Source of the DNA: Rothia mucilaginosa
GTDB taxonomy: Bacteria; Actinomycetota; Actinomycetes; Actinomycetales; Micrococcaceae
DNA length: 64,000 nt
Direction of reading: 5' to 3'
Assembly (NCBI RefSeq): GCF_001548235.1
Contig: NZ_AP014938.1
Span: forward strand, 1,922,001 to 1,986,000
Part shown: positions 48,459 to 64,000 of the stretch, piece by piece
How the letters are laid out: every line of letters starts with the position of its first letter
How positions within the stretch are numbered: position 1 is the stretch's first letter
Made by a program: the position numbers and the translations under genes
The notes under the pieces: model-generated
The model's database searches: none
What the model was told of the DNA's origin: nothing
The model's input: only the letters and a program-made list of their open reading frames with translations

Positions 48459-50282
48459 ATGTCGAAGACTACCCGTCGCGTTTACAAGATCGCAGCTGCG
48501 GCAGCCTTTACTGCCGGTTCCGTGGCAGCAATCCCGGCAACCTTTGCGGCAGAAGCACCCGCCGATCAGCAGCAGCAGGTTGTTGATCAGAAGGCAACCG
48601 CCCAGGCTTCTTCCCTGCCTGGCGGCAACGCAACCGAGACCCCCAAGGCTGAGGCTCCGAAGACCGAAGCTCCCAAGGCTGAGGCAACCGAGGCTCCCAA
48701 GGCAGAGACCCCCAAGGCTGAGGCTCCGAAGACCGAAGCTCCTAAGGCAGAGGCAACTGAAGCACCTAAGGCTGAGGCAACCGAGGCTCCTAAGGCTGAG
48801 GCACCGAAGACCGAAGCTCCTAAGGCAGAGGCAACTGAAGCACCTAAGGCAGAGACTCCCAAGGCTGAAGCACCTAAGGCAGAGACTCCCAAGGCTGAAG
48901 CACCTAAGGCTGAGGCTACCGAGGCTCCGAAGACCGAAGCTCCTAAGGCTGAGGCAACCGAGGCTCCCAAGGCTGAGACTCCTGCCCCCACCGCTCCTGC
49001 AACCCCCGAGCCCTCCACCCCCTCCACTCCGGCACCCGAGGCAAAGCAGGCTGACCCCTCCATCGTTATCGAGGATGCTCGCTTCCCCGGTAACGCACAG
49101 CTGAACACCGTGAGCGTTGTTGGCACCGGCTTCTACGGTGAGAAGGTCAGCCCCGGCGTACAGGTCAGCATCTACGCACTGGACGCAGACAACCAGATCA
49201 CCGGTGAGGCTCTCGCTACCGTTGTGGTACCCGCAGAGCAGATTCAGGACGGCACCTTCAAGGCTTCCATTACCGTTGAGGCAAGCAAGCTGCCTGCTGG
49301 CGCATCCTACGCACTGGCTGCTGTCAGCAACCCGCAGGGTCAGCCCAACGAGAAGCTCGTGGCTATCTCCTCCTTCAAGGTCACCGAGTCTACTTCGCCC
49401 GAGGCTCCCAAGAACGAAGAGACCCCTGCGCCCGTAACCCCGGCACCCGAGGCTCCCAAGACTGAGACCCCCAAGGAAGAAACTCCTGCTCCGGAAGCAC
49501 CCAAGGCTGAGACTCCGGCACCCGAGCAGACCGAGACCCCCGCTCCTGAGGCTCCCGCGGCACCCGAGAATGCAACCCTCACCACCGAGGATGCTTCCCT
49601 GGATCCGAACGACCAGTACAACGTTCTGACCTTCAACGGCTCCGGCTTCACCCACGAGTCCGTCGCTAACGGTGTCCAGATCGCAATCTACCGTCTGGAT
49701 GCAAACGGCAACATCACTGGCGAGGCTCTGGCAACCCACGATATTCCCGCTTCTGAAATCGTGAACGGCACCTTCCGCGTCAAGGTCAGCGTTCTTGCTG
49801 AGCTGCTGCAGCCCGGTTACGCTTACGCAATGGTGGCAACCAGCGACCCCAACGGCCTGGTACACCAGGTGGCAGTCACCACCGCTACCGTGAGCGATGC
49901 GAACAACCCCGCACCGACCCTGCCGGCAGCTACCGAGGGTGACAACACCACCGTTCGCGATAATGGCGACGGCACCACCAGCGTCTTCACCGCTGAAATG
50001 CGCGAAGACGGTTCGGTTGTCGTAACCGAGACCCGTATGCCTTCTTCTCAGGCACCCAAGGCTAAGGTTGGCAACGCATCCGCTGCCACCTCCTCTAGCT
50101 CCAACGGCCACACTGTAGGTGTCTCCGGCACCAAGGGCTCGACTTCGACCTCTTCTTCGGCTTCTTCGAAGCCGCAGCTGGCTAACACCGGTGCTGAGGG
50201 TGTTGCAGGTATCGCAGGCGTTGGCGCCGCAGCTCTGATTGCTGGTGCTGCACTGATGCTCCTGCGCCGCCGCAGCCTCTAA
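48459..50282 (+). CDS. LAXTG surface protein 1, module family
   Basis: 607 aa. Sec signal peptide (MSKTTRRVYKIAAAAAFTAGSVAAIPATFA). Residues ~60-185 are tandem pentads of PKAEA/PKTEA/PKAET/TEA type, a wall-spanning stalk. Two copies of the ~100-residue module follow (about 197-310 and 373-480; the first begins IVIEDARFPGN and contains GVQVSIYALDADNQITGEALA), separated by a second Pro/Glu/Thr stalk. A Ser-rich stretch precedes the sorting signal LANTG (about 575-579), a hydrophobic helix and RRRSL. LAXTG is the motif recognised by class E sortases. Presumed cell-wall-linked adhesin or scaffold; the ligand is unknown. Strong terminator follows. Confidence 0.88.
   Translation: MSKTTRRVYKIAAAAAFTAGSVAAIPATFAAEAPADQQQQVVDQKATAQASSLPGGNATETPKAEAPKTEAPKAEATEAPKAETPKAEAPKTEAPKAEATEAPKAEATEAPKAEAPKTEAPKAEATEAPKAETPKAEAPKAETPKAEAPKAEATEAPKTEAPKAEATEAPKAETPAPTAPATPEPSTPSTPAPEAKQADPSIVIEDARFPGNAQLNTVSVVGTGFYGEKVSPGVQVSIYALDADNQITGEALATVVVPAEQIQDGTFKASITVEASKLPAGASYALAAVSNPQGQPNEKLVAISSFKVTESTSPEAPKNEETPAPVTPAPEAPKTETPKEETPAPEAPKAETPAPEQTETPAPEAPAAPENATLTTEDASLDPNDQYNVLTFNGSGFTHESVANGVQIAIYRLDANGNITGEALATHDIPASEIVNGTFRVKVSVLAELLQPGYAYAMVATSDPNGLVHQVAVTTATVSDANNPAPTLPAATEGDNTTVRDNGDGTTSVFTAEMREDGSVVVTETRMPSSQAPKAKVGNASAATSSSSNGHTVGVSGTKGSTSTSSSASSKPQLANTGAEGVAGIAGVGAAALIAGAALMLLRRRSL
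48640..49000 (+). repeat. 15-bp-based repeat array encoding the stalk
   Basis: Units such as GCTCCTAAGGCAGAG recur in register. A longer block of over 50 bp (from GCTCCGAAGACCGAAG onward) is repeated almost exactly about 80 bp apart, starting near 48726 and 48809. Stalk length could vary by recombination without frame loss. Confidence 0.85.
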
Positions 50283-50343
50283 TAGCTCAGCCTTATGGGC
50301 TAGGCTCTGAAAATCTGATGCTCACCGCAAGGTGAGTGAAACG

Positions 50344-50385
50344 AGTGCCGCCAATACTCTAGAAAGAGTGTTGGCGGCACTTTTG
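50344..50385 (+). terminator. Terminator of surface-protein gene 1
   Basis: A 17-bp stem with one G-T pair (AGTGCCGCCAATACTCT with AGAGTGTTGGCGGCACT), 4-nt loop, then TTTT. Confidence 0.92.
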
Positions 50386-50907
50386 CGTGTCAGTAGTTAT
50401 GCGTGCTAGTAGATTTGCGTGCCAGCGGTTTTGCTGAGCTGTTCTGCTGGGCTACTTTGAGTCTGAGCGAGGGCGTGTGCGGCAAAGTGTGTGTTGCAGG
50501 CTGGGGGAGGGGTGTGGGTGTTCCCTTCCGTGTTGGGGTGCAGACATGTTGGGGTGCAGGGCGGTGCGGTGGTGTGGTTCTGCGGAGGTTTTTATTGGGC
50601 AATTATTGGTATGCACGTTTTTAGTGAATGCGCCGGGAAAAGCGGTGTGACCTGCTATTTTTTCACTTAAAAGAAATAAATTAAATGCATGAATGTGCAG
50701 AATATTTTTATCTCAAATCCGTTAAAACTGCATATGCATGCAATAAAACCTTGAGCCTCAAGGGAGAGTTGAGAAATTTTACCTAGTCCATGCAGTTTGA
50801 ATGCTCTTGATGCTGTTCCGAAGAGTAAAAAATATTCTGTGTGGGTTATTGCACAGGAAAACACTTGGAAGGTAAAGCGGATTTACCGCAATAAACGCAA
50901 AAGTATT
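50386..50907. other. Intergenic before surface-protein gene 2
   Basis: About 520 bp with no gene. The first half is GT-rich with a repeated GTTGGGGTGCAG (about 50534-50560); the second half is AT-rich with a GCATATGC/TGCATGCA palindromic cluster at about 50728-50742 and an inverted repeat GGTAAA/TTTACC at about 50871-50887. Confidence 0.4.
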
Positions 50908-50934
50908 GTTAGTGTGGAATTACCGATAAATAGA
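50908..50934 (+). promoter_or_regulatory. Shared upstream motif, copy 2
   Basis: GTTAGTGTGGAATTACCGAT followed by AAATAGA; the ACCGATAAATAGA part is identical in copy 5 at 57724-57736. It starts 178 bp before the ATG of gene 2. Confidence 0.5.
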
Positions 50935-51085
50935 GCGATTCCCTTCGCGGTAACTTCCACCATTACATGAACGTTATGACTAGTCCGTACGTTATAGCGT
51001 TCAATCCCGAAGAGGCACCTGTCCACCTTCGATCCGTGGCACCCTCCGGAGGGTATCGTTCACACTCACAGAAAAGGTGTGTTCC

Positions 51086-53080
51086 ATGCCCGAACCCGCT
51101 CACTCAAAAACTCGTGCAACAGCCGCTATTGCTGCTTCCGTCCTGTCCGTCACCGGTGTTGGTGCTGCGCACGCAGATGTGCAGGTGCAGAATACTGGAG
51201 GGGTGGCTTCAGCGACCACGGTGGAGTCTGATAATCCTCCCTCCGAGGAAGATGTAACCCCCATCGAAAACGTTGCTACCCAGAATTCCCCGCAGGTGTA
51301 CGTAGAGCAGGGCGTTGTCATTAACCCCGCACGCTCCCAGAGCATCACCGTCAGTGGTGAAGGCTTCACCGGCGGCCCTGTTGAGCGTTACGGCGTGGCG
51401 GTCTACGTGAGCGAATACCGCCAGTACCCCCTCTACGCGTTGGCTCGCGGCTCCGCCGTAGCGATGACCCTCGTACCCGAACTCGACGTGGAGGGTGGTC
51501 GCTTCAGCACCCAGCTGACCCTGCCCGCAGGCACCCTCGACCCCAACCAGCAGTACGTCGTCGCGACCGCAGTGGTTGACCCCGGCAAGGGCTACGCAAC
51601 GGAGGATCCCTCCTACAACTCCTCTGCACCCTTGGAGCTGCTGCCTGCAGACACTCAGAATGAGCCGCTCAACGCTCAGATTCTTTCGGGTCAGTTGGAA
51701 ATCCCGCAGGAAAAGAACCTTGTCGTCTACAAGGTCACCGGTCTGGGTGAGGCGCAGGCTTTCGAGGTGATGACCTATGCCTATGCTCTGGATAGTCAGG
51801 GTAACCGCATCCTGCTCGCTGCCTCTCCCGCACGTGCCGACGTTATGAACGGCACCCTCTTGGATGGCATTGAGGTGCCCGGGTCCAGGTTGGAAGAAGT
51901 GCAGGCTGTTCACGAAGATCTGCGCTATGTGCTCAGCGTTGAAATCGCGCCCTCTGCGGCTAATGGTTATACCGCCCAGGAAGTTGAGGTTCCCTTCATG
52001 AATGGTTGGAATGCACAGAATGGCTCCGCTCCGGTTGCTACCGCTGAGCGCGCAATGGCGGAGCAGGCACAGTCTGAGAAGAAGCAGTCTGAAGAGGATG
52101 TACAGTCCGAGCAGAGCGCCCAGGCTGAGTCTGCACAGGTTGAGTCTGGTCAGGCTGCCTCGAATGCCCAGTCTGAGCAGGCGGTTGCCGTGAGCCCCGT
52201 CGAGCAGTTCGATCGCGTACTGCCCGAGGATGATCCGCGCCGCCACTACGACCTGCCGCGCAACACCGTCTTTGACCGCGTCCATGACACCACCGAAGAA
52301 CAGAACAACACCTCTAACCCCGTGATGACCGCCCGCCTGCACGTAGAAGAAACCGTAGTTCCCGAAAACGACTCCGAGAAGGCTCTGACCGTGCGCGGCG
52401 AGGGTTTCACTGGCGTCAGCTCGGTACACCTGATGGTTAGTGCTGTCGACGAATACGGTGTGGCACGCGATGGCGTAATTGCCTCGGCTGATGTCTCTGA
52501 GATTGACGCCTCCGGTGCTTTTACTGCCCAGGTGCAGATTCCCGGCTCGGAGCTCAAGCCCGGCACTACCTACCGTGTGAGTGCTGTGGCGGAGGATGAG
52601 CAGGGCACCGTGCGCATGGTCAACGGTGGCTTCACTGTTGAGCGCGATAGTGTGGATAACGTGCCTGCAACCCCTGAGGCGTCGGAGTCTGAAAGCTCTG
52701 CGCCTGAGGTTAATGCGCCTGATGCTACCGCGCCTGCTGAGGCTACCGCTCCTGCGGCAGATCAGCAGAAGGCGGGGGAGAGCGCTACCGACCAGAAGGA
52801 TGATACTTCGGTTCCGGTTCAGAATACCGGTGCTCAGGATGCGTCCGCTCAGAAGGTCGAAGCTCAGGAGGTTGAACCGCAGAAGAGTGGCGAGCAGAAG
52901 GCGCAGGCCTCTGGTTCTCAGAAGGTTGCCGCTGGTGCCCAGCAGAAGCGTGAGCAGTTGGCGGCTACCGGCGCCTCCAATATGCTGGTCATTAGCGCTG
53001 CTGGATCGCTGTCACTGCTTGCCGGTATGCGTTTGAGCCGCCGTCGCCGTAGTGAGATGCAGCTCAGTTCTCGCCGCTAA
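51086..53080 (+). CDS. LAXTG surface protein 2, module family
   Basis: 664 aa from ATG at 51086 behind AAAAGG; a GTG at 51077 in the same frame is too close to the ribosome site. Signal peptide MPEPAHSKTRATAAIAASVLSVTGVGAAHA. Three modules: about 70-180 (YVEQGVVINPARSQSITV), 195-305 (LNAQILSGQLEIPQEKNLVV) and 413-515 (RLHVEETVVPENDSEKALTV). A Gln/Ser/Glu-rich linker (about 320-375) and a Pro/Glu/Ala then Gln-rich stalk (535-630) separate them. The sorting signal is LAATG, hydrophobic helix, then RRRR and a short tail. Probable wall-anchored protein; strong terminator follows. Confidence 0.87.
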   Translation: MPEPAHSKTRATAAIAASVLSVTGVGAAHADVQVQNTGGVASATTVESDNPPSEEDVTPIENVATQNSPQVYVEQGVVINPARSQSITVSGEGFTGGPVERYGVAVYVSEYRQYPLYALARGSAVAMTLVPELDVEGGRFSTQLTLPAGTLDPNQQYVVATAVVDPGKGYATEDPSYNSSAPLELLPADTQNEPLNAQILSGQLEIPQEKNLVVYKVTGLGEAQAFEVMTYAYALDSQGNRILLAASPARADVMNGTLLDGIEVPGSRLEEVQAVHEDLRYVLSVEIAPSAANGYTAQEVEVPFMNGWNAQNGSAPVATAERAMAEQAQSEKKQSEEDVQSEQSAQAESAQVESGQAASNAQSEQAVAVSPVEQFDRVLPEDDPRRHYDLPRNTVFDRVHDTTEEQNNTSNPVMTARLHVEETVVPENDSEKALTVRGEGFTGVSSVHLMVSAVDEYGVARDGVIASADVSEIDASGAFTAQVQIPGSELKPGTTYRVSAVAEDEQGTVRMVNGGFTVERDSVDNVPATPEASESESSAPEVNAPDATAPAEATAPAADQQKAGESATDQKDDTSVPVQNTGAQDASAQKVEAQEVEPQKSGEQKAQASGSQKVAAGAQQKREQLAATGASNMLVISAAGSLSLLAGMRLSRRRRSEMQLSSRR

Positions 53081-53120
53081 AACAGGTCAATTATTGCCCC
53101 ACTAGGCAAAACATGCACAT

Positions 53121-53172
53121 AGATGTAGGGATGTCCGAAATGCAAGATTCGGGCATCCCTACATCTTTAACT
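53121..53172 (+). terminator. Terminator of surface-protein gene 2
   Basis: A perfect 13-bp stem (AGATGTAGGGATG with CATCCCTACATCT), inner CCGAA/TTCGG, then TTTAACTTTTT. Confidence 0.92.
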
Positions 53173-53376
53173 TTTTCTAAGGTTATACCTATAATTTAGA
53201 GTGCTGTCATAGACGGTACTATCACTCTTACCACCCCGTTCACCCGGGGTAGGAGTCGCTGTGAAGCGCCTCCCGGTCACCGATATCAGAGAACCGTTAT
53301 TCTGCGCCTACTTCCGACCTTTGGGCGCAGGAGTCACACAACGATTCATCACACTCACTCACGAAAATAGGTGACC
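53173..53376 (+). promoter_or_regulatory. Leader of surface-protein gene 3
   Basis: CCTATAATTTAG at about 53185-53196 contains a consensus -10 (TATAAT). The transcribed part can form GGAGTCGCT/AGCGCCTCC (about 53251-53272) and TGCGCC/GGGCGCA (about 53303-53329). This is the one paralogue without the GTTAGGG...ACCGAT motif, although CACCGATATCAGAGA occurs at about 53278-53292. Confidence 0.45.
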
Positions 53377-55215
53377 ATGTTTTCCACGCAGCGTTCCTGC
53401 CGCGGCGCGGCGCTAGTAGCGTCTGCCGCCCTCGGTTTGGGCGGCTCCGTCGCGCCTGCAACTCTGGCCCCCGCTACCTTCGCATCTGCCGCTTATGCGC
53501 AGACTCAGCTGTCTCCGAAGCCTGAACTTCCCATTACTGTTGCCGCCGACGTCGTTCAGCACAGCATCACCTTGGATCTGCTGGCTCAGACTAGCGACTA
53601 CACTCTCCTGCAGGTCAGCGGTGTAACTTCCCTGGATCAGGTGAAGGTTCGCCTGTCTGCCATCTCCGTTGAGGATGGCATTGTCGCCACTATGACCGTA
53701 CCTGATGCTCAGCTGACTGCCTCAAAGAATGAAGAAGGCAACATGGAGCTGAGCATTCACCAGCGCCTCAATGTTGAGCAGCCGTACATGGTCGAAATTG
53801 AGAATCTAAGCAACGGCGAGACTGTCTCCGTTGAGTTTATGCCTGAGCATGGTGTAACAGCCGATGAGATTATGGCTAGCCGCCAGAACATTTTCTTCCC
53901 CGACACCCCCGGTGTTCCCCGCGCTAACCGCGTGGAGGCGAACCCCGCCCCCGAGGTGTCCCTGAGCCCCAGCGCATCCCCGAGTGCCGCGAAGGATAGC
54001 CCGCGCCCGACGGTTGCCCCGGCACCTTCTGAGGCGCCGTCTGCTTCGCAGAGCGCTTCGGCACGTCCTTCCGCGAGTGCATCTGCTAGCGCCTCGGCGA
54101 ATGCGTCGGCGAGTGCATCCGCGAGCGCGTCTGCCAGTGCTTCTGCCTCGGCGAGCTCTTCTGCTGATGATGCGGCGCCTGCTGAGGTGACCGAGGACCG
54201 CCTGCTGGTGCACTCCCGCTCTGATCAGGCTCCCGCGGAGACCCGCGAGGCGACCCTGGAAATTTCTACCGCAGAACTGCGCGGTTCGGATGAGGTGCAG
54301 CCGATTAGCGTGCGCGCTAAGAACGTGGCGGAGAGCGGCTTGGGTTATGACGTGATGGTCTTTGAAATGCCTGCCGACGGTGGTGCCGTGGGTTCGCCGC
54401 TGGCGACCACGCATGTGAGCCCTCAGCAGGTGGCTGATGCTTCTTTCTCTGCTGATTTGAAGGTTCCCGGCACTTCTTTGAATGCGGGTAAGCGCTACCG
54501 TGTGGTTGTGGTGGGTGGTGACTCCACTGAGGAGCTGAAGCTCATGGCGACCAGCACTTTTGGTGTGAGCGTGATTCAGCGTGCTGTTCCTGTTGATCCG
54601 GCTCCGAGGCATACGAATACTGTTGTTCGCCCGCTGGCCCCGGTGATTTCTGAGGCGAATCAGCGGGTGAGCCCTTCGGCTCCTTCGGGCTATGTGAGCC
54701 CTGCGGGCTCTTCAGATGCCTCTGCAGACGCTCAGGGTTTGGTGACTGATTCTGTCGCTAAGATTCCGTCGGCGGATGGCGCTCTGGGCTATATTATGCA
54801 GGCGCAGCAGTCTGCGCGTGCGATTACCGCGCAGGCTCGTAGTTCTGTGGCTGAGACTGCGGTGGTTCCTTCGACGCTGGTGATGTCTGGTTATGCGGTG
54901 ATGCTGCCCGGTCGTACCGTGGTGAACCTGTTGGGTTACCAGCCTCTTGAGGGGGAGACGGTGACTGTTTCTTCGCCGCAGGAGAATGCGGGTGCTGCGG
55001 GTTCGGGTAGCTTCTATACGCGTAGCTCGAAGTCGCGCGGTGATTCTTCCGGTTCGAAGCTGGAGGCGAGCGCCCAGGATAACGGCCCTCTGCCGGAGGG
55101 TACCTTGCCGCTGAGTATTGCCCTGCTGGGGTCGGTTGCCTTTGTGGGTACTGCTGTGGCGGTTAATGTGTATCGTCGTCGCCTTGAGGGCGCTGAGGAG
55201 CTGGGAGCTGAGTAG
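53377..55215 (+). CDS. Membrane-anchored surface protein 3, module family
   Basis: 612 aa from ATG at 53377; a GTG at 53371 lies inside the ribosome site. Signal peptide MFSTQRSCRGAALVASAALG...AAYA. First module about 45-155 (ITVAADVVQHSITLDLLAQ); then a Pro/Ser linker and a Ser-Ala tract (about 225-265); second module about 285-395 (GYDVMVFEMPADGGAVGSPLATTHVSPQQV); a long Ser/Ala-rich stretch to about 570; then a single membrane helix (LSIALLGSVAFVGTAVAVNVY), RRR and an acidic tail. There is no LAXTG/LPXTG; LPEGT just before the helix could be a scrambled remnant. Probably membrane-anchored rather than wall-linked. Confidence 0.85.
   Translation: MFSTQRSCRGAALVASAALGLGGSVAPATLAPATFASAAYAQTQLSPKPELPITVAADVVQHSITLDLLAQTSDYTLLQVSGVTSLDQVKVRLSAISVEDGIVATMTVPDAQLTASKNEEGNMELSIHQRLNVEQPYMVEIENLSNGETVSVEFMPEHGVTADEIMASRQNIFFPDTPGVPRANRVEANPAPEVSLSPSASPSAAKDSPRPTVAPAPSEAPSASQSASARPSASASASASANASASASASASASASASASSSADDAAPAEVTEDRLLVHSRSDQAPAETREATLEISTAELRGSDEVQPISVRAKNVAESGLGYDVMVFEMPADGGAVGSPLATTHVSPQQVADASFSADLKVPGTSLNAGKRYRVVVVGGDSTEELKLMATSTFGVSVIQRAVPVDPAPRHTNTVVRPLAPVISEANQRVSPSAPSGYVSPAGSSDASADAQGLVTDSVAKIPSADGALGYIMQAQQSARAITAQARSSVAETAVVPSTLVMSGYAVMLPGRTVVNLLGYQPLEGETVTVSSPQENAGAAGSGSFYTRSSKSRGDSSGSKLEASAQDNGPLPEGTLPLSIALLGSVAFVGTAVAVNVYRRRLEGAEELGAE
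54050..54165 (+). repeat. Ser-Ala codon repeat tract
   Basis: Alternating Ser and Ala codons (GCGAGTGCATCT-like 12-bp units) encode about 38 residues of the linker of protein 3. Mixed synonymous codons imply age or selection against perfect repeats. Confidence 0.8.
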
Positions 55216-55595
55216 CCCTGCTTGAGTAGTTCCAGCTTCTGGATCTTCGCGCGTGAGGCGTGTGTGACTCTCTGTGGGGGAGTCGTTGAGTGGGAGGCGC
55301 TCTGCCGGGTGCGTGCTGATGGGGTGCGTGTTCGGTGGGGCGCCTTCTGCGTGCCTGGTTGTCTGTGTACCTGGATGTCGACCCTGTTGTGTGGTGGTCT
55401 GTTGCGCTTTGGCCTGTTGTGCCTTGGGGCGGTGTAAAAAATCTCTTTTTCGTGCACTTGTGGGAATATTTATGGCATTCGAATTTTGCGTTATTTATAT
55501 CTCAGTAAAGTATTTAATTCCCTTTTATTTCGGCAATTGTTGCGGCATAAAGTTTTAGCACATGAATGCAATGCAACATTTAGTGCAATATCTAT
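55216..55595. other. Intergenic before surface-protein gene 4
   Basis: About 380 bp without a gene: a GC/GT-rich first half and an AT-rich second half from 55440. No terminator hairpin is evident after gene 3, so read-through toward gene 4 is possible. Confidence 0.35.
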
Positions 55596-55620
55596 GTTAG
55601 GCTGGGATATAACCGACGTA
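55596..55620 (+). promoter_or_regulatory. Shared upstream motif, copy 4
   Basis: GTTAGGCTGGGATATAACCGA, 106 bp before gene 4, matches the GTTAGGGTGGAATTACCGAT motif with a one-base insertion. Confidence 0.45.
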
Positions 55621-55701
55621 CTGGTGCGCAAATACCTGGATAGAAACACCGGCTTGTGGTGAGCCTTCCCTAGTCCACGCTTTGCGTCTACATCGATTGA
55701 A

Positions 55702-57549
55702 ATGGCACACATGACTATCACTCGACTTCCGAAACGCATTCATGCTCTTTCGCTTGCTGCCGCTCTAGGCGCAAGCGCTTTTGTGCTTCCTGGCGCCTCC
55801 GCAACCGAGGCTGAAGCAATTAATGTGAATGATTGTCTGGCGGCTCTAGTTAATAACGAATTTGATTCGAGTTGCCCTTATGAAGACCTTGAAATTGAGG
55901 TCGATACCATCGAAATTCGCGTGCAGTCCATTAAGGATGGCAAAGCGACCCTGAAGCTTGCACCCCTTTACGAGGGTGGCTATGTGGGTGACGCATCCAA
56001 GGTCTACTTGGTGTTGCAGTACTACAGCACCACCGGCGCGGTGCTCGGATCTGACACCTACGAGCCGTCTGCCCTGCAGGTCGAGCGCGCTGATGACGGC
56101 ACAATGCTCGTCACCTTTGAGATGCCGCAGACGCCCCAGGAAGGCTACTACTCCATTAGTGCCATGGATCTGATGACCTCCGACGCGGGTTACGGCGAAT
56201 TCATGATTTCTGGAGGCTCCCTCGCACCGCACACTATTCCCGTTGAAGATGACTCTGACGAGGTTATGGTGGATAAGGTGGATAAGAAGGAGAGTGCCCA
56301 CCATGTGCCGACCATTGATGAGCTGAAGGCGCTGGAGAAGCTCCGTGAAGAGGAGCAGAAGAACCAGCAGGCTGCAGATCAGAAGGGTAGCAAGGATAGG
56401 GTCAAGGTAGAGATTCCCTCTGATTCTTCTGAGCAGCCGAACCTTGAAACCCACACTCAGAAGCTGGAACAGGTCCCCGGCGGATCGACCTCTTCTCGTG
56501 ATACTCAGACCCTGAGCGTTTCGGAACTGAAGGTTGCGTATGCTGAGGTTCGCTCTGATAAGGAAACCAAGCCGGTGACCATCAGTGCAGAGCGCCTGCC
56601 CGCAAACGCGGCTGGCTACGACCTGATTGTGGTTGAAACCGATATGAGTGGCAACCACAAGGGCGATGCGCTGTCCATTACGCACATCAGCTCTAATCGC
56701 ATCGTCAATGGCGCGTTCAAGGAAGAGATTGGTATGCCCGGTTCTCTGTTGAAGACCGGCTCGGTGTACACCGCTTACCTAGTCCGTGCGGACGATACTG
56801 AGTACGCGGAAGAAGTTGTCTCGGTGCGATTCAAAGTCAGCGGTGAGGCGACCGGTAGCGCAACCTCCTCGACGAAGGATGAGATGCCCAGCCAGGATGC
56901 CAACGCATCGCTCACGCCCAGCACTAATGCGGCAGAGTCGACCGGCGCTACTCAGGGTAGCTCCTCCTCGGCTACTAGCTCCGTCTCGACCCGCTCTGAT
57001 GCAACCCAGTCGGGCTCAGGCCAGTCTGCCACGAGTGCACCCCGCTCCACTCTGGATGCGGTGAGCGCCATGTCCAAGGCAAAGGAAGCGAAGGCGGAGC
57101 GTCAGCGTCAGGCCCTTCTGGCTTTGGCTCAGGCACGTACGATAAGTCCGCGTTCGGCTTTTGAACCGACCCGCACTAACCAGATTTCGGCGTACAGCTC
57201 GGGGTCTGACCCGGCGTCGATCGCTGTTGCTGCGAACATGGATGCTCTGACGGATGAAGAAAAAGCGGCGTCGGCAGCTTCTGGTAGTGGCAATAAGGGT
57301 TTCACTCCCGTGGTTCACTCCGAGTCTAATACTCGTTCCGCGACGGTGAACTCGAACGTCACCCAGGTGCACTCCAACGCGAATGCTGATCGTCAGGATG
57401 GCGTGAAGGCTGTAGCTTCCGCAGCATCTCCTGCTGGTGAAGAGGTTGCGCAGCACGGTGTAGCTTTCTGGGTTCTTGGAGGCGCCGGCTTGATGCTGGT
57501 GGTTGGTGCCGCGTGGATGGCTCACCGTAGGGGAGTCCTCGGCGGCTAA
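55702..57549 (+). CDS. Membrane-anchored surface protein 4, module family
   Basis: 615 aa; ATG 55702, or ATG 55711 (MTITRLPKRIHALSLAAALGASAFVLPGASA), with no clear ribosome site for either. Signal peptide; a short segment with two Cys (DCLAALVNNEFDSSC), probably a disulfide. First module about 50-175 (IEIRVQSIKDGKATLKLAP); a charged Lys/Glu/Gln linker (195-265); second module about 270-385 (GYDLIVVETDMSGNHKGDALSITHIS). A Ser/Thr-rich stalk follows, then VAQHG where LAQTG would be expected, a membrane helix (VLGGAGLMLVVGAAWMA) and HRRGVLGG. The sorting motif has thus lost its Leu and Thr; membrane retention is expected. Confidence 0.85.
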   Translation: MAHMTITRLPKRIHALSLAAALGASAFVLPGASATEAEAINVNDCLAALVNNEFDSSCPYEDLEIEVDTIEIRVQSIKDGKATLKLAPLYEGGYVGDASKVYLVLQYYSTTGAVLGSDTYEPSALQVERADDGTMLVTFEMPQTPQEGYYSISAMDLMTSDAGYGEFMISGGSLAPHTIPVEDDSDEVMVDKVDKKESAHHVPTIDELKALEKLREEEQKNQQAADQKGSKDRVKVEIPSDSSEQPNLETHTQKLEQVPGGSTSSRDTQTLSVSELKVAYAEVRSDKETKPVTISAERLPANAAGYDLIVVETDMSGNHKGDALSITHISSNRIVNGAFKEEIGMPGSLLKTGSVYTAYLVRADDTEYAEEVVSVRFKVSGEATGSATSSTKDEMPSQDANASLTPSTNAAESTGATQGSSSSATSSVSTRSDATQSGSGQSATSAPRSTLDAVSAMSKAKEAKAERQRQALLALAQARTISPRSAFEPTRTNQISAYSSGSDPASIAVAANMDALTDEEKAASAASGSGNKGFTPVVHSESNTRSATVNSNVTQVHSNANADRQDGVKAVASAASPAGEEVAQHGVAFWVLGGAGLMLVVGAAWMAHRRGVLGG

Positions 57550-57614
57550 TGCTCCTCATCAGTGCTTTTTGAAGGCTCTGTATATGATGTTCTTTGTTTT
57601 ATGAGGAATGTTCG

Positions 57615-57646
57615 CCCCCGCTATCTGTAGACGCAGATAGCGGGGG
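57615..57646 (+). terminator. Hairpin after surface-protein gene 4
   Basis: A perfect 13-bp stem (CCCCCGCTATCTG with CAGATAGCGGGGG), 6-nt loop, with only TAATT after it. Confidence 0.7.
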
Positions 57647-57709
57647 TAATTCGTATGTTCAGGGTGTTCAAAAAAACTCTACCTCGCATGAATAAACCTT
57701 AAGGTTCGT

Positions 57710-57736
57710 GATAGGGTTGAAATAACCGATAAATAG
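57710..57736 (+). promoter_or_regulatory. Shared upstream motif, copy 5
   Basis: GATAGGGTTGAAATAACCGAT followed by AAATAGA, 177 bp before gene 5, almost the same distance as copy 2 from gene 2. Confidence 0.5.
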
Positions 57737-57886
57737 ATGCGAGCTATTGTCAGGTCGTCACCACCTGAAATACGACGCGGAGCGTGGTACGACGAGCCCG
57801 GGCGCATGACGCTCCCGAAGGGCTCCCCGCGGCACGTGAAGAACGAGCAGTAGTGCGCACAATTCCACCACGAAAAGACGCATTGC
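57737..57886 (+). promoter_or_regulatory. Structured leader of surface-protein gene 5
   Basis: GGAGCGT pairs with ACGCTCC (57780-57820) and GAGCCC with GGGCTC (57796-57826) as mutually exclusive alternatives; CAGGT/ACCTG lies at about 57751-57769. The ribosome site before ATG 57887 is weak. Confidence 0.35.
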
Positions 57887-59542
57887 ATGAGTATTTATTC
57901 AGCGAAGCACCGTATTGTCACCGCAACCATTTTGGTTGCGGGGCTTCAGTGTGGGCTTGTTGTACCCTCCGTCGCAGCGGAAGCCCCCGTCACGACGCAC
58001 TCTGCTATGCAGAAACCCTCCGCATTGAACGCGGACCAGGCTGAAGACAACCAGAAGGCGCAGAGCGCAGCCTCCACAATCACCATGAAGGCGCAGCTTA
58101 GGGATGGCGGCTACCTTCTACGTTGGACGGGCTTCCCTGAAAATCTGGAGGCCTCCAGTGTTCTGGCTGACGTGAACTTCTACACCCCTTCCGGTGAGTA
58201 CGGTGGCTCCGTGCTGGAAAGCCCGACCCTAACTGAGGGGACCAAGGAGGGGGAGTTCCGCCTGCTGATGAGCCCGGCAACGGACTCTAACGTCGTGTAC
58301 GTCATTGTTCTGGAAGATACCGTGCACGGCGTCTCCTACGAATTCTTTGTGACCGAGCGGGACAACCGCCTGGTTGAGGCCGCTGACCCACGCAACGGTA
58401 AGGCAAAGCCCACCGAACCGCCGGTCGACATTGAGCGCGAAGAAGCCGGAACTGCCGAGGCGACTCCTCAATCAACCCCTGAAACTGTAAACCTGCCTTC
58501 GCCCACCGCCATCTCAACTACCGCCACCTCATCCACCGATACGTTACCCACCGATGCGGGCGGTGACACGGTTCGCCGTACCGTAGACAACCGGAAGAAC
58601 AAAGATTCTGGTCAGTATGGTATCTCCGAAGACACCAGTATGCATGACCCGATGAATCAGCGCGAGGGTAAGGCGCACATGTCCATTCAGGACTCGCAGG
58701 GTAACTCTCAGGATGACACAAAGCCCGTCACGGTCCGTGCCACGAACTTCCCTCAGAACGAGAAGGGTTACGACCTGATCGTCATGGAAATCGACTCCAA
58801 CGGCAACACTGTGGGTGATGCGCTCGCCATCGTGCATGTGGGTCCGGAATCCATTTCTGCCGGTGCTTTCGAGGCTGTGATTGGCGTGCCCGGTGCGTCC
58901 TTGCAGATTGGCAAGACGTACCTGGTGGCAGCATTTGACGCCGCCAATGATGGCAACCTTCAGCTGAATACGGTTCGTTTTACGGTGACTCAGGCATCTG
59001 TCGAGAATGGTGGCTCGTCGTCTGATTCTTCCTCTAAGAACGAGAGTGAATCGGCTGCGGAACCTTCTGCGAATCCTACGATTACCACTGATTCTGCAGG
59101 TGCATCTGGCGCGAGCACACCCGCCGCAGGATCTAGGTCTAAGACCCGCGGTATTCAGGCTGATACCGCCATGGCTCCGGGCACTAAGGACGCCACGATT
59201 TCTGTTCCGCGCCCCTCGGGTGGTTCTGTTACCGAGTCTTCCTCGGCTCTGGGGTACCGCACTGAGGAGGCGCAGCCTGTTCAGGTGCCGACCCCCGACT
59301 CTAATCTGCCTTCGGGTATCGGCTCGGCGGCGCAGTCTCGCCGCGCCGCGATTCTGAACGGTTCTTCCACTCAGGTTCGTACTGAGCCCGGGCCGCAGAA
59401 CGGCGTGAAGGCAATGGAGGCGCAGATTACCCGCAATATGGATACGAGCTTGCCTCTTCTGCCGATTTTGGTAATTTTGGGTGGCGGCCTGATTCTTGGC
59501 GCCCTGGGTGTGTCGCGTGTGCACGCTCCGAAGAAGGATTAG
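57887..59542 (+). CDS. Membrane-anchored surface protein 5, module family
   Basis: 551 aa. Signal peptide MSIYSAKHRIVTATILVAGLQCGLVVPSVAA. First module about 60-165 (TITMKAQLRDGGYLLRWTGFPENLEASSVLADVNFYTPSGEYGG); Thr/Pro/Ser linker (170-220); second module about 265-375 (GYDLIVMEIDSNGNTVGDALAIVHVGPESI), closest to that of protein 4. A Ser/Gly-rich stalk follows; GVKAMEAQ before the helix is shared with protein 4 (GVKAVASA). The membrane helix LPLLPILVILGGGLILGALGV ends in SRVHAPKKD. No sorting motif remains. No terminator is seen before the HtaA gene. Confidence 0.85.
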   Translation: MSIYSAKHRIVTATILVAGLQCGLVVPSVAAEAPVTTHSAMQKPSALNADQAEDNQKAQSAASTITMKAQLRDGGYLLRWTGFPENLEASSVLADVNFYTPSGEYGGSVLESPTLTEGTKEGEFRLLMSPATDSNVVYVIVLEDTVHGVSYEFFVTERDNRLVEAADPRNGKAKPTEPPVDIEREEAGTAEATPQSTPETVNLPSPTAISTTATSSTDTLPTDAGGDTVRRTVDNRKNKDSGQYGISEDTSMHDPMNQREGKAHMSIQDSQGNSQDDTKPVTVRATNFPQNEKGYDLIVMEIDSNGNTVGDALAIVHVGPESISAGAFEAVIGVPGASLQIGKTYLVAAFDAANDGNLQLNTVRFTVTQASVENGGSSSDSSSKNESESAAEPSANPTITTDSAGASGASTPAAGSRSKTRGIQADTAMAPGTKDATISVPRPSGGSVTESSSALGYRTEEAQPVQVPTPDSNLPSGIGSAAQSRRAAILNGSSTQVRTEPGPQNGVKAMEAQITRNMDTSLPLLPILVILGGGLILGALGVSRVHAPKKD

Positions 59543-59669: not shown

Positions 59670-59747
59670 GGTGTGTATCTTGAGAAATACTCATACTGTC
59701 GATATAGTAAGCCTGTCCTAACAATGTCGATAGTATGGATACACACC
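59670..59747 (+). promoter_or_regulatory. Nested inverted repeats abutting the HtaA start
   Basis: Outer arms GGTGTGTATC (59670-59679) and GATACACACC (59738-59747) enclose inner arms CATACTGTCGATA (59692-59704) and TGTCGATAGTATG (59725-59737). The ATG follows 1 nt later with no Shine-Dalgarno sequence. TGTCGATA appears twice. A weak DtxR-like half-site (AGCCTGTCCTAA, 59710-59721) lies in the loop. This may be a double operator or an RNA fold controlling translation. Confidence 0.5.
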
Positions 59748-59748
59748 A

Positions 59749-62505
59749 ATGAAGATTTTCACATCTAGCACCCGCTTCTCCAAGGGAGCCTGCGCCCTCG
59801 CCGTCGCTGGCGCTGTTGCCCTGCCCCTGGCACCCGTTCTCGCCGAGAACATTAATATCGCCGCCCAGAACGTTGCCGCACAGAACGTCGCAGCAGGCGA
59901 CCAGGCAACCGCTGGCGCGTCCTTCGGTTGGGGCGTGCGCGCCTCCTTCCTGTCCTATAACGGTATGCCCCGCGAAATGACCGACGGCGCAGCCTGGGAC
60001 GCAACCGCAAAGCAGTTCACCTTCACCCCGACCTCCACCACCGTCTCTGAAGACGGCAAGCAGGTCACCCTGCAGGCTGCCGGCCGCCTCTGGTTCACCG
60101 GCCACTGCGCCGAAGGTCAGGATCCCGAAACCGGTTGTGCCCTGAACCTCACCTTCTCTAACCCCCGCGTGGAACTGAACCTCGCTGACGGCACCGGCTC
60201 CCTCTACATGACCGTGCGCACCAAGAACTACGCCAGCGGCAAGTTCGAGGGCCCCATGGAAGTCAAGATGGCTACCCTGAGCACCGGCACCGCCAAGCAG
60301 AGCGATAAGGACGGTGTGGTCAGCATTAGCGGCATCTCCGCGAACCTGACCGCCGACGGTAACCACGCCTTCTCCGACTTCTATAACGAAGGCGCCAGCC
60401 TCGACCCGCTGAGCATCTCCTACACCGGTAGCGCAGCGAACACCACCAAGAGCGCCTACAGCGTCGCCGAGTCCTACAACACCGGCGCGGGCGTGAACCA
60501 GCCCCAGAACACCGCACGTCTGGGCCAGAACCACATCGTGCACGTGGCACCCCCGAGCTTCAGCGGCGACACCACCTACACCGTGCTGAACAGCTCCAAC
60601 CTGAAGATGACCGACACCGGCGTCCTGAAGGCAATCAAGGGCGTTTTCGCTGTGGACGCTGACGGCAACCGCATGCTCGTCATCGGCAGCGAAAGCAACA
60701 AGCCCGAGCTGTACACCGTGACCGCTGAGGGTAAGCTCGTCTCCTCCGGTATCTACTCCGACGCGGAGCTCGGTGCCACCACCGTCAAGGCAATTGGCTA
60801 CAACCCCGCCAACAACACCTGGGGCATCCTCAGCATTGACGGCCAGGGCGGCGGCAAGCTGACCATTATTGACGCATCCGGCAAGGCAACCTCGCAGGCT
60901 CTGCCGAAGCCCGACTCCATCGACCCGCAGGTTGTGAACGCCTACTCGCTCGACGAGTACTACGGCGACTCGTTCTCCAACAACACCGTGACCCTCGCGC
61001 CGCTGCCCGACGGTAGCTTCGTGTACGCGCCGTCGACCTCCATCTACGATGCGTCTGGCGAAAAAGTGGTCCAGAAGGGCCACCTGCTGCACCTGAGCAG
61101 CAACGGCGTGTCCCTGGTGCCGAACTCCTCGCCCGAGGGCTACACCACCACCCTGTCCTCGACCCTGGTCAGCCCCAAGGGCTACATTTACCGTTGGAAC
61201 AACTGGTCCGGCGGTAAGGTCCAGGTCCTCAAGTACGAGAACGGTGCTTTCAGCGTGGTCCGCGAGTCCTCAACCCTTGAGGGCTTCGAGAAGACCGAGG
61301 TTGCCACCATGTTCCTGACCCGCGCGGGTAACGTGGTCGTGGTGGACGCATCCGGCTCCCGCCTGGTGTTCATGGATGACACCCTGAACAAGGTGAACGA
61401 GGTGGTGCTCTCCTCGATGCGCAAGACCGACAAGAGCGGCGGCTACAACGCTCTCGAACTGCCCAACGGCGATATTATCTACCCGACCAGCTTCGAGAAC
61501 CCGAACACCTACGAGGATCAGCTGTGGCTGAACCGTCTGGCAGTGAACTCGGCACCGGCACCGGCTCCTGAGCCGACCAAGTCTGCTGAACCGACCGTTG
61601 CTCCCACCGAGGCACCTACCGCTGAGCCGACTGTTGCCCCCACCGCGGAGCCGACTAAGTCTGCTGAGCCGACCGTTGCTCCCACCGCTGAGCCTACCGT
61701 GGCACCCTCTGCAACTGCAGAACCCACCATGACGCCTTCTGTAAGCGCTGAGCCTACCGCGGAGCCTTCGGTAACGGCTGAGCCCACTGCGACCGCAGAA
61801 CCGACTGCTGAGCCTACCGTGACCGCTGAGCCGACTGTTGCTCCGACCGTGGCACCCTCTGCAACCGCTGAGCCCAGCGTGACCGCAGAACCCACCGCAG
61901 TGCCTTCGGAGGAGCCCACCTCGCCGTCTCTGCCGACCGCGTCCGTGGCGCCTTCTGCAACCCCGAGCGCGTCTGTAACCCCGAGCGCATCGGTGAGCGC
62001 ATCCCCGACCGCGGTTCCGAGCGTTCCCGCCGTGACCCCCTCGGCGACCGTGTCCGCATCGGCGTCCGCTAGCGCGTCTGCTTCTTCGAGTGTTTCTGCG
62101 AGCGCGTCGAGCTCCGCAAGCAGCTCCAGCAGCGCATCGGCGAGCGAATCGGCATCTTCGAGCGCCTCTGCTTCCGCGAGTGCTTCCGCTTCTGAGAGCA
62201 GCACCGCCGACCAGAACACTGCCGGCCACAAGGGCGGCTCCAACGGTGGTTCTGATACTGGTTCCGGCACCTCCGACAACTTGGGTGTGAGCGGTTCCAA
62301 CGGTGGTTCCTCTAACGGTGGTTCCTCTAACGGTGGTTCCTCCCTCGGTGGTGGTTCTTCCGCAGGTAGCTCCTCGACCTCCGGTAGCTCCTCCTCGAAG
62401 CTGGCTCAGACCGGCGCATCCGGCGCTATGTTCGCCGCAGCAGCCGGTGCCATCACCCTGGCTGCAGGTACCGCACTGGTTGTGGCACGCCGCCGCAAGA
62501 GCTAA
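59749..62505 (+). CDS. LAXTG-anchored HtaA-domain heme-binding protein
   Basis: 918 aa. Signal peptide to about Ala32. HtaA domain at about 58-222: WGVRASFLSY with Tyr70, GRLWFTGH with His119 and FSDFYNEGASLDPLSISY with Tyr212, equivalent to the Tyr/His/Tyr heme contacts known for corynebacterial HtaA. Next comes a beta-propeller-like part (about 300-600; repeats of the type ADGNRMLVIGS, NNTWGILSIDG and AGNVVVVDASGSRLVF). Then EPTVAPTA-type stalk repeats (604-720), a Ser/Ala tract (745-825), Gly/Ser-rich SNGGS repeats, and the sorting signal LAQTG (about 884-888), helix and RRRKS. Probably captures heme at the wall. Confidence 0.9.
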   Translation: MKIFTSSTRFSKGACALAVAGAVALPLAPVLAENINIAAQNVAAQNVAAGDQATAGASFGWGVRASFLSYNGMPREMTDGAAWDATAKQFTFTPTSTTVSEDGKQVTLQAAGRLWFTGHCAEGQDPETGCALNLTFSNPRVELNLADGTGSLYMTVRTKNYASGKFEGPMEVKMATLSTGTAKQSDKDGVVSISGISANLTADGNHAFSDFYNEGASLDPLSISYTGSAANTTKSAYSVAESYNTGAGVNQPQNTARLGQNHIVHVAPPSFSGDTTYTVLNSSNLKMTDTGVLKAIKGVFAVDADGNRMLVIGSESNKPELYTVTAEGKLVSSGIYSDAELGATTVKAIGYNPANNTWGILSIDGQGGGKLTIIDASGKATSQALPKPDSIDPQVVNAYSLDEYYGDSFSNNTVTLAPLPDGSFVYAPSTSIYDASGEKVVQKGHLLHLSSNGVSLVPNSSPEGYTTTLSSTLVSPKGYIYRWNNWSGGKVQVLKYENGAFSVVRESSTLEGFEKTEVATMFLTRAGNVVVVDASGSRLVFMDDTLNKVNEVVLSSMRKTDKSGGYNALELPNGDIIYPTSFENPNTYEDQLWLNRLAVNSAPAPAPEPTKSAEPTVAPTEAPTAEPTVAPTAEPTKSAEPTVAPTAEPTVAPSATAEPTMTPSVSAEPTAEPSVTAEPTATAEPTAEPTVTAEPTVAPTVAPSATAEPSVTAEPTAVPSEEPTSPSLPTASVAPSATPSASVTPSASVSASPTAVPSVPAVTPSATVSASASASASASSSVSASASSSASSSSSASASESASSSASASASASASESSTADQNTAGHKGGSNGGSDTGSGTSDNLGVSGSNGGSSNGGSSNGGSSLGGGSSAGSSSTSGSSSSKLAQTGASGAMFAAAAGAITLAAGTALVVARRRKS
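61565..61920 (+). repeat. Pro-Thr-Ala-Glu stalk repeats in the HtaA protein
   Basis: Variants of GCTGAGCCGACCGTTGC, in 12- to 18-bp multiples, encode AEPTVAPT/AEPSVTAEPT units. Similar stalks in genes 1 and 6 differ in unit sequence, so they arose independently. Confidence 0.8.
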
Positions 62506-62521: not shown

Positions 62522-62573
62522 AACACCCCGCTTCGCCACTCGTGTTTATGAGTGGGGGAGCGGGGTGTTCCTT
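62522..62573 (+). terminator. Terminator of the HtaA gene
   Basis: An 11-bp stem (AACACCCCGCT with AGCGGGGTGTT), inner CACTC/GAGTG stem, then CCTTT. Confidence 0.85.
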
Positions 62574-62588
62574 TCATACAATGGAAAT

Positions 62589-63329
62589 ATGACTATTCTG
62601 AATGTAATCGCAACCTCGCACGGCACCGACTCGGTCGCCGGTCGCGAGGCTATCACGCTGATTCGTGAGCAGATTAAGTTCCTGCTCGCTCAGCGTAATG
62701 ACGGTGTGGAGTACCGTGTCCACGCCGCATATGTGGATGTGGAATCTCCCAGCGTTGATGATGCCGCAGCCTCCCTGCCCAATGATGAGCCCTGCGTGAT
62801 TGTGCCGATTCTGCTGTCGACCGGCTTCCATACTCAGGTGGATTTGCGCCGTGCCGCACGCAATAGCGGTATTGAGCGTATCAGCATTGGCGAGTCTTTG
62901 GGCCCGGATGCGCGCCTTGCCGCGCTGACCCGCGCTCGCTTGGAGGAAGCTGGCTGGACTCCCGGCGACGGCCCTGTGGTTCAGGGTGCTGCCGGTTCTT
63001 CCCGCCCTGATGGTCGCGCGGATATGAGCCGTGCCGCCGAGCTGCTGGCTGAGGAGTTGCACGTTCCGGTGCATCACGGCTTCATTGCCGCGATTGATCC
63101 GAAGTTCCACGAGGTGGTTGCCGAACATCAGCCTAAGTTCGCTGCGACCTACCTGCTGGCGGAGGGTTTCTTCGCCGGTAAGATGCGCCGTGATGCTGAG
63201 TCGACCGGTGTGCCGGTGAAGGTTGCCGCGCCGCTGGTGAACGCGCAGGGTGGCGCTTCTGCTGCCGTGGTGGCGGAGTGCTTTATTGACCGCATGGATG
63301 CGGCTATTGCCCAGCTGGACGCCGCCTAG
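62589..63329 (+). CDS. Sirohydrochlorin chelatase-like (CbiX/SirB)
   Basis: 246 aa from ATG at 62589 (MTILNVIATSHGTDSVAGREAI); the frame is open from 62565, but that overlaps the terminator. The catalytic His of the CbiX family is His11 in ATSHGTDS; the second half has VPVHHGFIAAIDPKFHEVV with the partner His. Family members insert Fe or Co into sirohydrochlorin. Next to nirD, an iron chelatase role for siroheme, the cofactor of nitrite reductase, is the natural reading. Cytoplasmic. Confidence 0.85.
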   Translation: MTILNVIATSHGTDSVAGREAITLIREQIKFLLAQRNDGVEYRVHAAYVDVESPSVDDAAASLPNDEPCVIVPILLSTGFHTQVDLRRAARNSGIERISIGESLGPDARLAALTRARLEEAGWTPGDGPVVQGAAGSSRPDGRADMSRAAELLAEELHVPVHHGFIAAIDPKFHEVVAEHQPKFAATYLLAEGFFAGKMRRDAESTGVPVKVAAPLVNAQGGASAAVVAECFIDRMDAAIAQLDAA

Positions 63330-63790: not shown

Positions 63791-64000
63791 GGGGGTTTCC
63801 TTTCGAAGTGGTGGTCTGCGCCGCGCGGGGTGCAGGACACAATAGCGGTTCGTGTGTTCTTTGTTTGGAGTTTACCTTATGAAACCCACATTTGGAAATG
63901 GGGCGCGCGGAGGGTGCTAAAGGTTATTTTTACCCTAAAAGATGACCTTGAATTTTATAGATTAGCCTTACCTAAATTAAGTCTAGATAAGGTAAGAATA
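63791..64000. other. Right-edge intergenic region
   Basis: Contains the nirD promoter on the minus strand and the iron-box promoter on the plus strand. No gene begins before the window ends. Confidence 0.5.
63957..63975 (+). promoter_or_regulatory. DtxR/IdeR-type iron box
   Basis: ATAGATTAGCCTTACCTAA matches 16 of 19 positions of the DtxR/IdeR consensus TTAGGTTAGSCTAACCTAA. It lies at the right edge and presumably controls a plus-strand iron-acquisition gene outside the window. A TTGAAT -35-like element overlaps it on the left. Confidence 0.65.

Follow-up and report, generated by a model that had tools for sequence, protein, structure and literature searches.

The stretch examined here, hereafter the window, comprises 64,000 nucleotides of Rothia mucilaginosa (NCBI RefSeq assembly GCF_001548235.1, contig NZ_AP014938.1, positions 1,922,001 to 1,986,000 of the forward strand), from a genome consisting of one contig of 2.29 Mb. 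Its subject is an array of five consecutive plus-strand open reading frames (ORFs), genes A to E, at positions 48459-59542, which encode surface proteins built from one repeated module. Gene F, which carries an HtaA (CR) heme-binding domain, follows next, and then a CbiX-like gene (Table 1). An earlier sequence-only reading had placed five consecutive genes at this position, and the ORFs are there. The tandem family is real; three genomes conserve it and in a fourth it is decaying. Profile comparisons strongly suggest that its module is related to an unannotated module that accompanies HtaA domains in other actinobacteria.

Module content of the five proteins

Seven modules (A1, A2, B1, B3, C2, D2 and E2) are certain by profile hidden Markov model (HMM). 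The sequence-only reading had counted eleven, distributed as 2+3+2+2+2, and the other four candidates are of graded standing. B2 and D1 have support from profile comparison: 30 column shuffles of B2 reached a maximum of 2.9% in hhalign, and D1, which scores 2.4% against a 25-module core profile (shuffles, core profile only, <=1.1%), has an orthologue in R. mucilaginosa 141_RMUC (genome G101) that passes 1e-3 in an iterated HMM. C1 is marginal, with 10.5% and 1.5% against the 79-module and 25-module core profiles and shuffles of <=1.9%. The corresponding values for E1, 0.39% and 0.25%, lie in the same range as shuffles, and its membership would follow only from the predicted fold, a low-confidence Fn3-like sandwich with a mean pLDDT of 63.6.

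The recurring pattern by which the family had been recognized is in effect the sequence of E2. Its 23 fixed positions, placed without gaps, are best matched by E2 (23), D2 (20), C2 (18), A1 (14), A2 (13) and B1 (10), and more weakly by B2, B3 and D1 (7 each), E1 (6) and C1 (4). The background maximum is 9, both in the 86 other window ORFs of at least 150 amino acids (aa) and in 200 shuffles of A-E, and the bare pattern exceeds it in six of the eleven modules.

Table 1. Coordinates of the array, its modules and neighboring features in the window (iE, independent E-value).
Feature	Position	Strand	Description
Gene A	48459..50282	+	607 aa; signal peptide, two modules, LANTG, transmembrane segment, RRR tail
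Module A1	49050..49376	+	HMM iE 7.6e-39; HtaA-linked profile 1.2e-9
Module A2	49566..49892	+	HMM iE 3.8e-40; HtaA-linked profile 1.1e-8
LANTG sorting signal of A	50178..50192	+	motif scan
Gene B	51077..53080	+	667 aa; two certain modules and divergent B2, LAATG
Module B1	51284..51631	+	HMM iE 1.6e-33; HtaA-linked profile 1.1e-14
Module B2, divergent	51671..52000	+	hhalign 76-77% vs module profiles
Module B3	52325..52639	+	HMM iE 1.6e-37; HtaA-linked profile 8e-8
LAATG sorting signal of B	52958..52972	+	motif scan
Gene C	53371..55215	+	614 aa; transmembrane segment near the C-terminus, without LxxTG; Ser/Ala-rich stalk
C1, possible degenerate module	53533..53850	+	marginal profile match only
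Module C2	54244..54567	+	HMM iE 2.1e-41; HtaA-linked profile 5.3e-6, partial
Gene D	55702..57549	+	615 aa; transmembrane segment near the C-terminus, without LxxTG
D1, divergent module	55897..56217	+	hhalign 56% vs 79-module profile
Module D2	56503..56838	+	HMM iE 1.5e-42; HtaA-linked profile 8.3e-4
Juxtamembrane motif QV[HR][ST]..GVKA in D	57364..57411	+	D/E alignment, three Rothia genomes
Gene E	57887..59542	+	551 aa; transmembrane segment near the C-terminus, without LxxTG
E1	58073..58366	+	Fn3-like fold predicted at low confidence
Module E2	58667..58987	+	HMM iE 8.9e-43; HtaA-linked profile 5.7e-6; folded as Ig/Fn3-like sandwich
Juxtamembrane motif QVRT..GVKA in E	59372..59413	+	D/E alignment, three Rothia genomes
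Gene F	59749..62505	+	918 aa; HtaA domain, PT-type repeats, LAQTG; beyond the coordinates of the sequence-only reading
HtaA (CR) domain of F	59917..60420	+	Pfam
CbiX-like gene	62565-63329		downstream of F

Fold and family placement

AlphaFold models the module as a seven-stranded, two-sheet Ig/Fn3-like sandwich (pLDDT 88), so that the Ig-like fold guessed from the letters agrees with the predicted structure. Pfam and NCBIfam scans of A-E gave no match for the module above cut-off, and in a Pfam scan of 47 Rothia modules the best E-value was 0.015. Specific candidates fared similarly. The fn3 family (PF00041) reached at best 14.4 bits in B against a cut-off of 25 and was not listed in A, C, D or E; HtaA (PF04213) had no match in A-E at E <= 1; NEAT and Shr domains had no match in A-E by Pfam scan; and Shr-HID (PF07550) was absent from A-E and matched one of the 47 modules, at E 0.094.

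Searches of PDB sequences with 7-row and 47-row profiles gave best values of 0.086 and 0.077, both to ribosomal protein eS21, which we take as chance; the values for macromomycin (0.18) and for an ester-bond adhesin repeat (7ui8, E 0.11-0.15) were not significant. Foldseek returned 1850 matches to the predicted fold at E <= 10 and none at E <= 0.001. Unrelated families tie among these matches, and we claim no closer structural family. The earlier statement that the module cannot be placed in a named family thus stands for Pfam and NCBIfam; it falls short in that the module very probably has homologs, unannotated, in the same chains as HtaA in many actinobacteria.

Association of the module with HtaA outside Rothia

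A search of 347 genomes of the order with a profile of the 47 Rothia modules (A4) detected the module in 41. Of these, 38 lie outside Rothia, and one place was taken from each of the 38. The module counts of the order-level and class-level searches are lower bounds, and ORFs shorter than 150 aa (Rothia set) or 200 aa (order and class sets) were left out. With a local HtaA HMM, 23 of the 39 non-Rothia module ORFs carry HtaA at iE <= 1e-3 and 20 at <= 1e-10. Among the strongest module ORFs (module iE <= 1e-14) the share rises to 14 of 15, the exception being L084. Of the 16 module proteins examined first, 13 have an HtaA domain by Pfam itself; within the 23, the domains of L088 and L089 are not called by Pfam, and three are weaker than 1e-10. 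None of 86 module/HtaA pairs overlaps by more than 20 residues, and therefore the two profiles match different sequence.

The association extends to the class. A second profile, A9, which includes HtaA-linked rows, found the module in 28 of 394 genomes of the class. Twenty of these genomes were new to the analysis, and 19 of the 20 belong to other orders. In them HtaA is present in 19 of 24 module ORFs, nine of them at <= 1e-10, and at 18 of the 20 loci; when the Rothia-only profile is used for scoring, the count is 18 of 22 ORFs. In the opposite direction, a profile of 26 HtaA-linked copies, containing no Rothia rows, finds all seven certain window modules, with values from 1.1e-14 for B1, the closest of them to the HtaA-linked copies, to 8.3e-4 for D2, against a best reversed control of 2.1. 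B2, C1, D1 and E1 were not found by this profile up to E 10.

These matches make it very probable that the window module and the unannotated companion of HtaA are identical by descent. The new observation, as judged by profile matching, is that outside Rothia the module mostly belongs to HtaA (CR-domain) heme-binding proteins.

Gene F and the distribution of the array in Rothia

Among 35 Rothia genomes surveyed at a module threshold of E <= 0.01, seven contain the module. Genes A-E are complete in three of these, the window genome, G101 and G159, and all three keep the order SDR-A-B-C-D-E-F; CbiX follows F in the window and in G101, and in G159 lies beyond the stretch examined. In G101, a 335-aa ORF that reads as oxidoreductase-like stands between A and B (L055:11650-12657) and is missing from the window. 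The comparison of copy number among related genomes, suggested by the sequence-only reading, yields A-E one-to-one in three genomes and a decayed array in a fourth, Rothia sp. RSM386 (G002). There only A and F are whole. In the 1.8 kb that separates them lie a 159-residue ORF with 64% identity to the end of E and short stretches that match C, E and three intergenic gaps (A-B, C-D and E-F). These remnants mark a decay by internal deletions.

The F domain matches Pfam HtaA at 2.6e-39 (135.9 bits, cut-off 24), and the PT repeats remain below the Pfam cut-off. Across the Rothia loci the HtaA HMM matched four of 274 ORFs. All four are F genes, and the 42 module ORFs gave no match. F comes directly after the array in the window, G159 and G101 and directly after what is left of it in G002. 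A further pair of neighbors occurs in G149, where an HtaA gene (L144:1009-3189) lies about 0.4 kb from a module gene (L044:7453-11133) on the same strand. All seven module genomes have HtaA, which occurs in 19 of the 35 genomes of the genus, and none of the 16 HtaA-less genomes has the module (nominal P = 0.0075, ignoring kinship). Another HtaA gene of the window genome has three domains, and the ORFs adjoining it read as heme oxygenase and an HmuTUV heme ABC transporter; PMC3667864 (2013) states that R. mucilaginosa possesses systems for the uptake of heme and hemin.

The synonymous divergence (dS) of F from its counterpart in G101 (L040:1245-3974) is 0.25, compared with 0.77 for SDR, 0.88 for CbiX and 1.06-2.47, partly saturated, for the array. 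Because the value for F is far below those of its neighbors, it looks as if F had been exchanged recently between lineages. In two other Rothia genomes, the ends of HtaA proteins (L144:1009-3189 and L145:4654-7293) read as SLH-like, in place of the LAQTG with which F closes; this family may have swapped one anchor for another.

The module is also present elsewhere in the window genome. The array profile located a second locus at ~56-81 kb and, near 1,629 kb, a single gene. By iterated profile, the second locus (L009:20-18999, L048:6-6558) contains 11 tandem genes with divergent copies of the module, one split between two stretches, which brings the genome to ~17 module genes, A-E plus ~12 elsewhere. 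The proteins of this locus have SLH-like C-terminal regions, with SLH above the Pfam cut-off in four of the eight scanned and below it in the other four; in one of them (L009:15929-17896) Shr-HID reached 18.3 bits, below its cut-off of 22.3. A distant module protein, used as the query against proteins, gave three matches.

Duplication and selection

In a tree of 106 modules, which has few columns, open deep forks and a bootstrap that has not settled, each of the seven certain modules groups one-to-one with its equivalents from G101 and G159, and therefore the duplications predate the split of the three genomes. Nested clades appear in the same tree (B3+C2+D2+E2, 98/85; C2+D2+E2, 99/91; D2+E2, 100/88). 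Together, these nested clades and orthologous groups speak for the growth by duplication that had been proposed for the locus.

The array modules are under purifying selection between species. Relative to G159, the ratio of nonsynonymous to synonymous divergence (dN/dS) is 0.04-0.24 for the seven certain modules and 0.11-0.40 for the sequence outside modules, and the module lies below the non-module sequence in six of seven cases, the exception being A1 (0.24 vs 0.11). Neither for genes nor for modules does any dN/dS that could be calculated lie above 1; one dS could not be calculated.

Anchoring and expression signals

A clear hydrophobic N-terminal segment is present in A, C, D and E, which upholds the signal peptides of the sequence-only reading for these four; the N-terminus of B resembles one, yet lies below the hydropathy threshold used. 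The C-terminal membrane helix likewise holds as a hydrophobic segment in all five proteins and covers two kinds of ending, with LAXTG in A and B and no L[AP]xTG within the last 60 residues of C, D and E. A, B and F combine the features of class E sortase substrates (LAXTG, hydrophobic segment and basic tail), and the one sortase found in the window genome is of class E (NF033747, 269.7 bits, cut-off 160, 1.9e-80). NCBIfam scans matched A to NF058582 (31.5 bits, cut-off 27) and TIGR01167 (20.5 bits, cut-off 15.9), and B to TIGR01167 (16.5 bits). C, D and E probably stay in the membrane. The low-complexity stalks described earlier are plain as linkers in the translations of A-E, that of A being acidic and rich in Pro, Glu and Ala, and the architecture of stalk and anchor is present in all five.

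Gaps of 290-794 bp separate the genes within the array, and 206 bp separate E from F. On our reading, each of A-F is preceded by its own block conserved across three Rothia genomes, and because of these blocks separate promoters are likely. Among short words shared upstream of A-F, only B and E have one in common, of 13 bases, which we did not use as evidence. In the B-C gap, simple consensus scans show a 19-pair hairpin followed by T-rich sequence (53121-53166) and, right behind it, a promoter-like pair (53167-53195); these are probably the terminator of B and the promoter of C. The juxtamembrane motif of D and E precedes the membrane segment, has a looser form in C and is kept in three genomes amid fast-evolving linker, and could be a processing or docking site.

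Iron boxes were scanned with what we take to be the DtxR/IdeR consensus. The sole site of the genome at <=3 mismatches is a palindrome at 63957-63975 (16/19), which lies outside the array and precedes an ORF read as nitrite reductase. A 14/19 match at 59703, upstream of F, was not used as evidence, five shuffled windows having given 0-4 such matches.

A search with protein D gave 605 relatives, and among the 120 listed the named ones belong to Rothia mucilaginosa or uncultured Rothia; a related-locus search with D found no relative among 42 candidate stretches, and A had no match among plasmids. PMC12979206 (2026) reports R. mucilaginosa as the most abundant species in its SPARK saliva cohort and describes a region of this species that is associated with ABO and holds a 3-isopropylmalate dehydrogenase gene and an unannotated protein. 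That region is probably a different one from the array: the sole leuB-like match, at G000:1839688, is below the family cut-off (260.9 of 353.2 bits) and has no module match there.

Possible roles of the array

We tentatively interpret A-E as stalked surface binding proteins that work beside HtaA-type heme capture, with a role as generic adhesins about equally likely. The former is favored because the module accompanies HtaA and the array adjoins F. If A-E bind anything, we infer that the modules are their binding heads, because no other folded domain was recognized in these proteins; that the ligand is a hemoprotein is a guess. Under this interpretation, the Rothia modules would sit in separate proteins on flexible stalks, A and B displayed on the wall through the class E sortase, C, D and E on the membrane, and F anchored to the wall beside them. 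The modules would hold a host or salivary ligand, plausibly a heme carrier, near the cell, and F/HtaA together with HmuTUV would then take up the heme. In PMC12494546 (2025), a structural study of C. diphtheriae HtaA and ChtA, the CR domains tested by nuclear magnetic resonance did not bind met-hemoglobin, a result that conflicts with earlier reports using immobilized hemoglobin and leaves other segments as possible binders.

Several observations weigh against such a role. At the order level, 16 of the 39 module ORFs lack HtaA in the same ORF under the looser test, although two of them (L114 and L121) have an overlapping or adjoining HtaA ORF. For the reciprocal profile, the 26 copies were chosen by similarity to the Rothia profile, so that this test is not wholly independent. 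The motif AAH...DR.LD of the HtaA-linked copies, whose AAH is present in 11 of 12 aligned HtaA-linked modules, occurs in none of the seven window modules, and function may therefore have shifted. Several HtaA proteins also hold Big_3_5 Ig domains, and the module may be a mere spacer there. Within Rothia, 12 of the 19 HtaA-positive genomes have no module match at the survey threshold, and in G153 an A-like gene stands between SDR and CbiX with no HtaA beside it; its two HtaA genes lie elsewhere, the single-domain one with no module ORF within the surrounding 9 kb. No IdeR/DtxR box precedes A-E at <=3 mismatches, for a consensus that is nearly absent genome-wide.

The absence of the loop motif from all seven window modules is the reason why generic adhesins appear about as likely. 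Their modules would bind salivary glycoproteins, mucosa or other bacteria, and the HtaA link would reflect a shared pool of actinobacterial Ig-like domains. The succession of stalk, module and anchor fits this explanation, as do the second locus of ~11 tandem module genes with SLH-like ends and the decay of the G002 array while A and F persist. However, a proportion of 14 HtaA proteins among the 15 strongest non-Rothia module ORFs is higher than a shared pool suggests, and the proximity of the array or its remnants to HtaA in four Rothia genomes, with a separate neighboring pair in G149, also speaks against it.

A bolder form of the heme-related interpretation, which we consider unlikely, is that the module captures host proteins for the actinobacterial HtaA heme system, which would otherwise lack such a part, and that Rothia split it into separate receptors feeding HtaA in trans. 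CR domains bind heme but, in the magnetic resonance study, not hemoglobin; the Ig-like companion would supply that contact, in Rothia through receptors that differ in specificity: A and B wall-bound, C-E membrane-bound and an SLH-type set elsewhere.

Somewhat less probable still is a structural coat, in which A-E would be stalks or spacers that set the chemistry and spacing of the wall surface and their modules would have no specific ligand. The long low-complexity linkers, the adjacency of the module to other Ig spacers in HtaA proteins and the faster evolution of non-module sequence in most genes agree with it, but, relative to G159, conservation is higher in six of the seven certain modules than in the remainder of the protein that holds them, and seven module types each kept one-to-one over three genomes is more than a passive spacer seems to need. 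The immune-exposed, antigenically diversifying family of the sequence-only reading is very improbable: array proteins do diverge faster than the flanks between the window and G101 (identity 0.39-0.73 vs 0.82 for CbiX and 0.85 for SDR) and among the certain modules dN/dS is highest in A1 (0.24 relative to G159, 0.34 relative to G101), but the dN/dS values between species give immune-driven diversification no support, and there is no gene gain or loss among A-E of the three complete arrays.

In the literature searched, which left most subscription papers outside, we found no paper showing the array or the module. A word search of the main text of a fibrillar adhesin survey (PMC9210967) found neither Rothia nor HtaA, and the available part of PMC10924467, which describes HtaA proteins with C-tail anchors and lacks the word Ig-like, was not used as evidence. 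Our analysis gives an identity by descent to ~17 unannotated surface-protein genes of the R. mucilaginosa genome and draws attention to an unannotated domain of wide occurrence that accompanies HtaA heme-binding domains. The module could be a concrete candidate for hemoglobin contact in the actinobacteria that have it; should the heme link prove wrong, it would still be a defined target for adhesion studies.

Comparison with known systems

The fold class of the module is shared with fibronectin type III and bacterial Ig domains (PF00041 and the Big families). Its likeness to ester-bond adhesin repeats and stalked Ig-like adhesins (PDB 8fha, 7ui8) is a resemblance of fold only, and GH2 sandwich domains, Brr2 and Fn3 match the predicted fold equally well. 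NEAT and Shr-type hemoprotein-capture domains of Firmicutes would be functional analogs, if the modules capture hemoproteins. Another close system is that of the HtaA/CR-domain surface proteins (PF04213), which, like A-E, have signal peptides and wall or membrane anchors. Modules that stand in the same chain as HtaA mostly carry the AAH...DR.LD motif, whereas A-E have neither an HtaA domain nor this motif in their modules.

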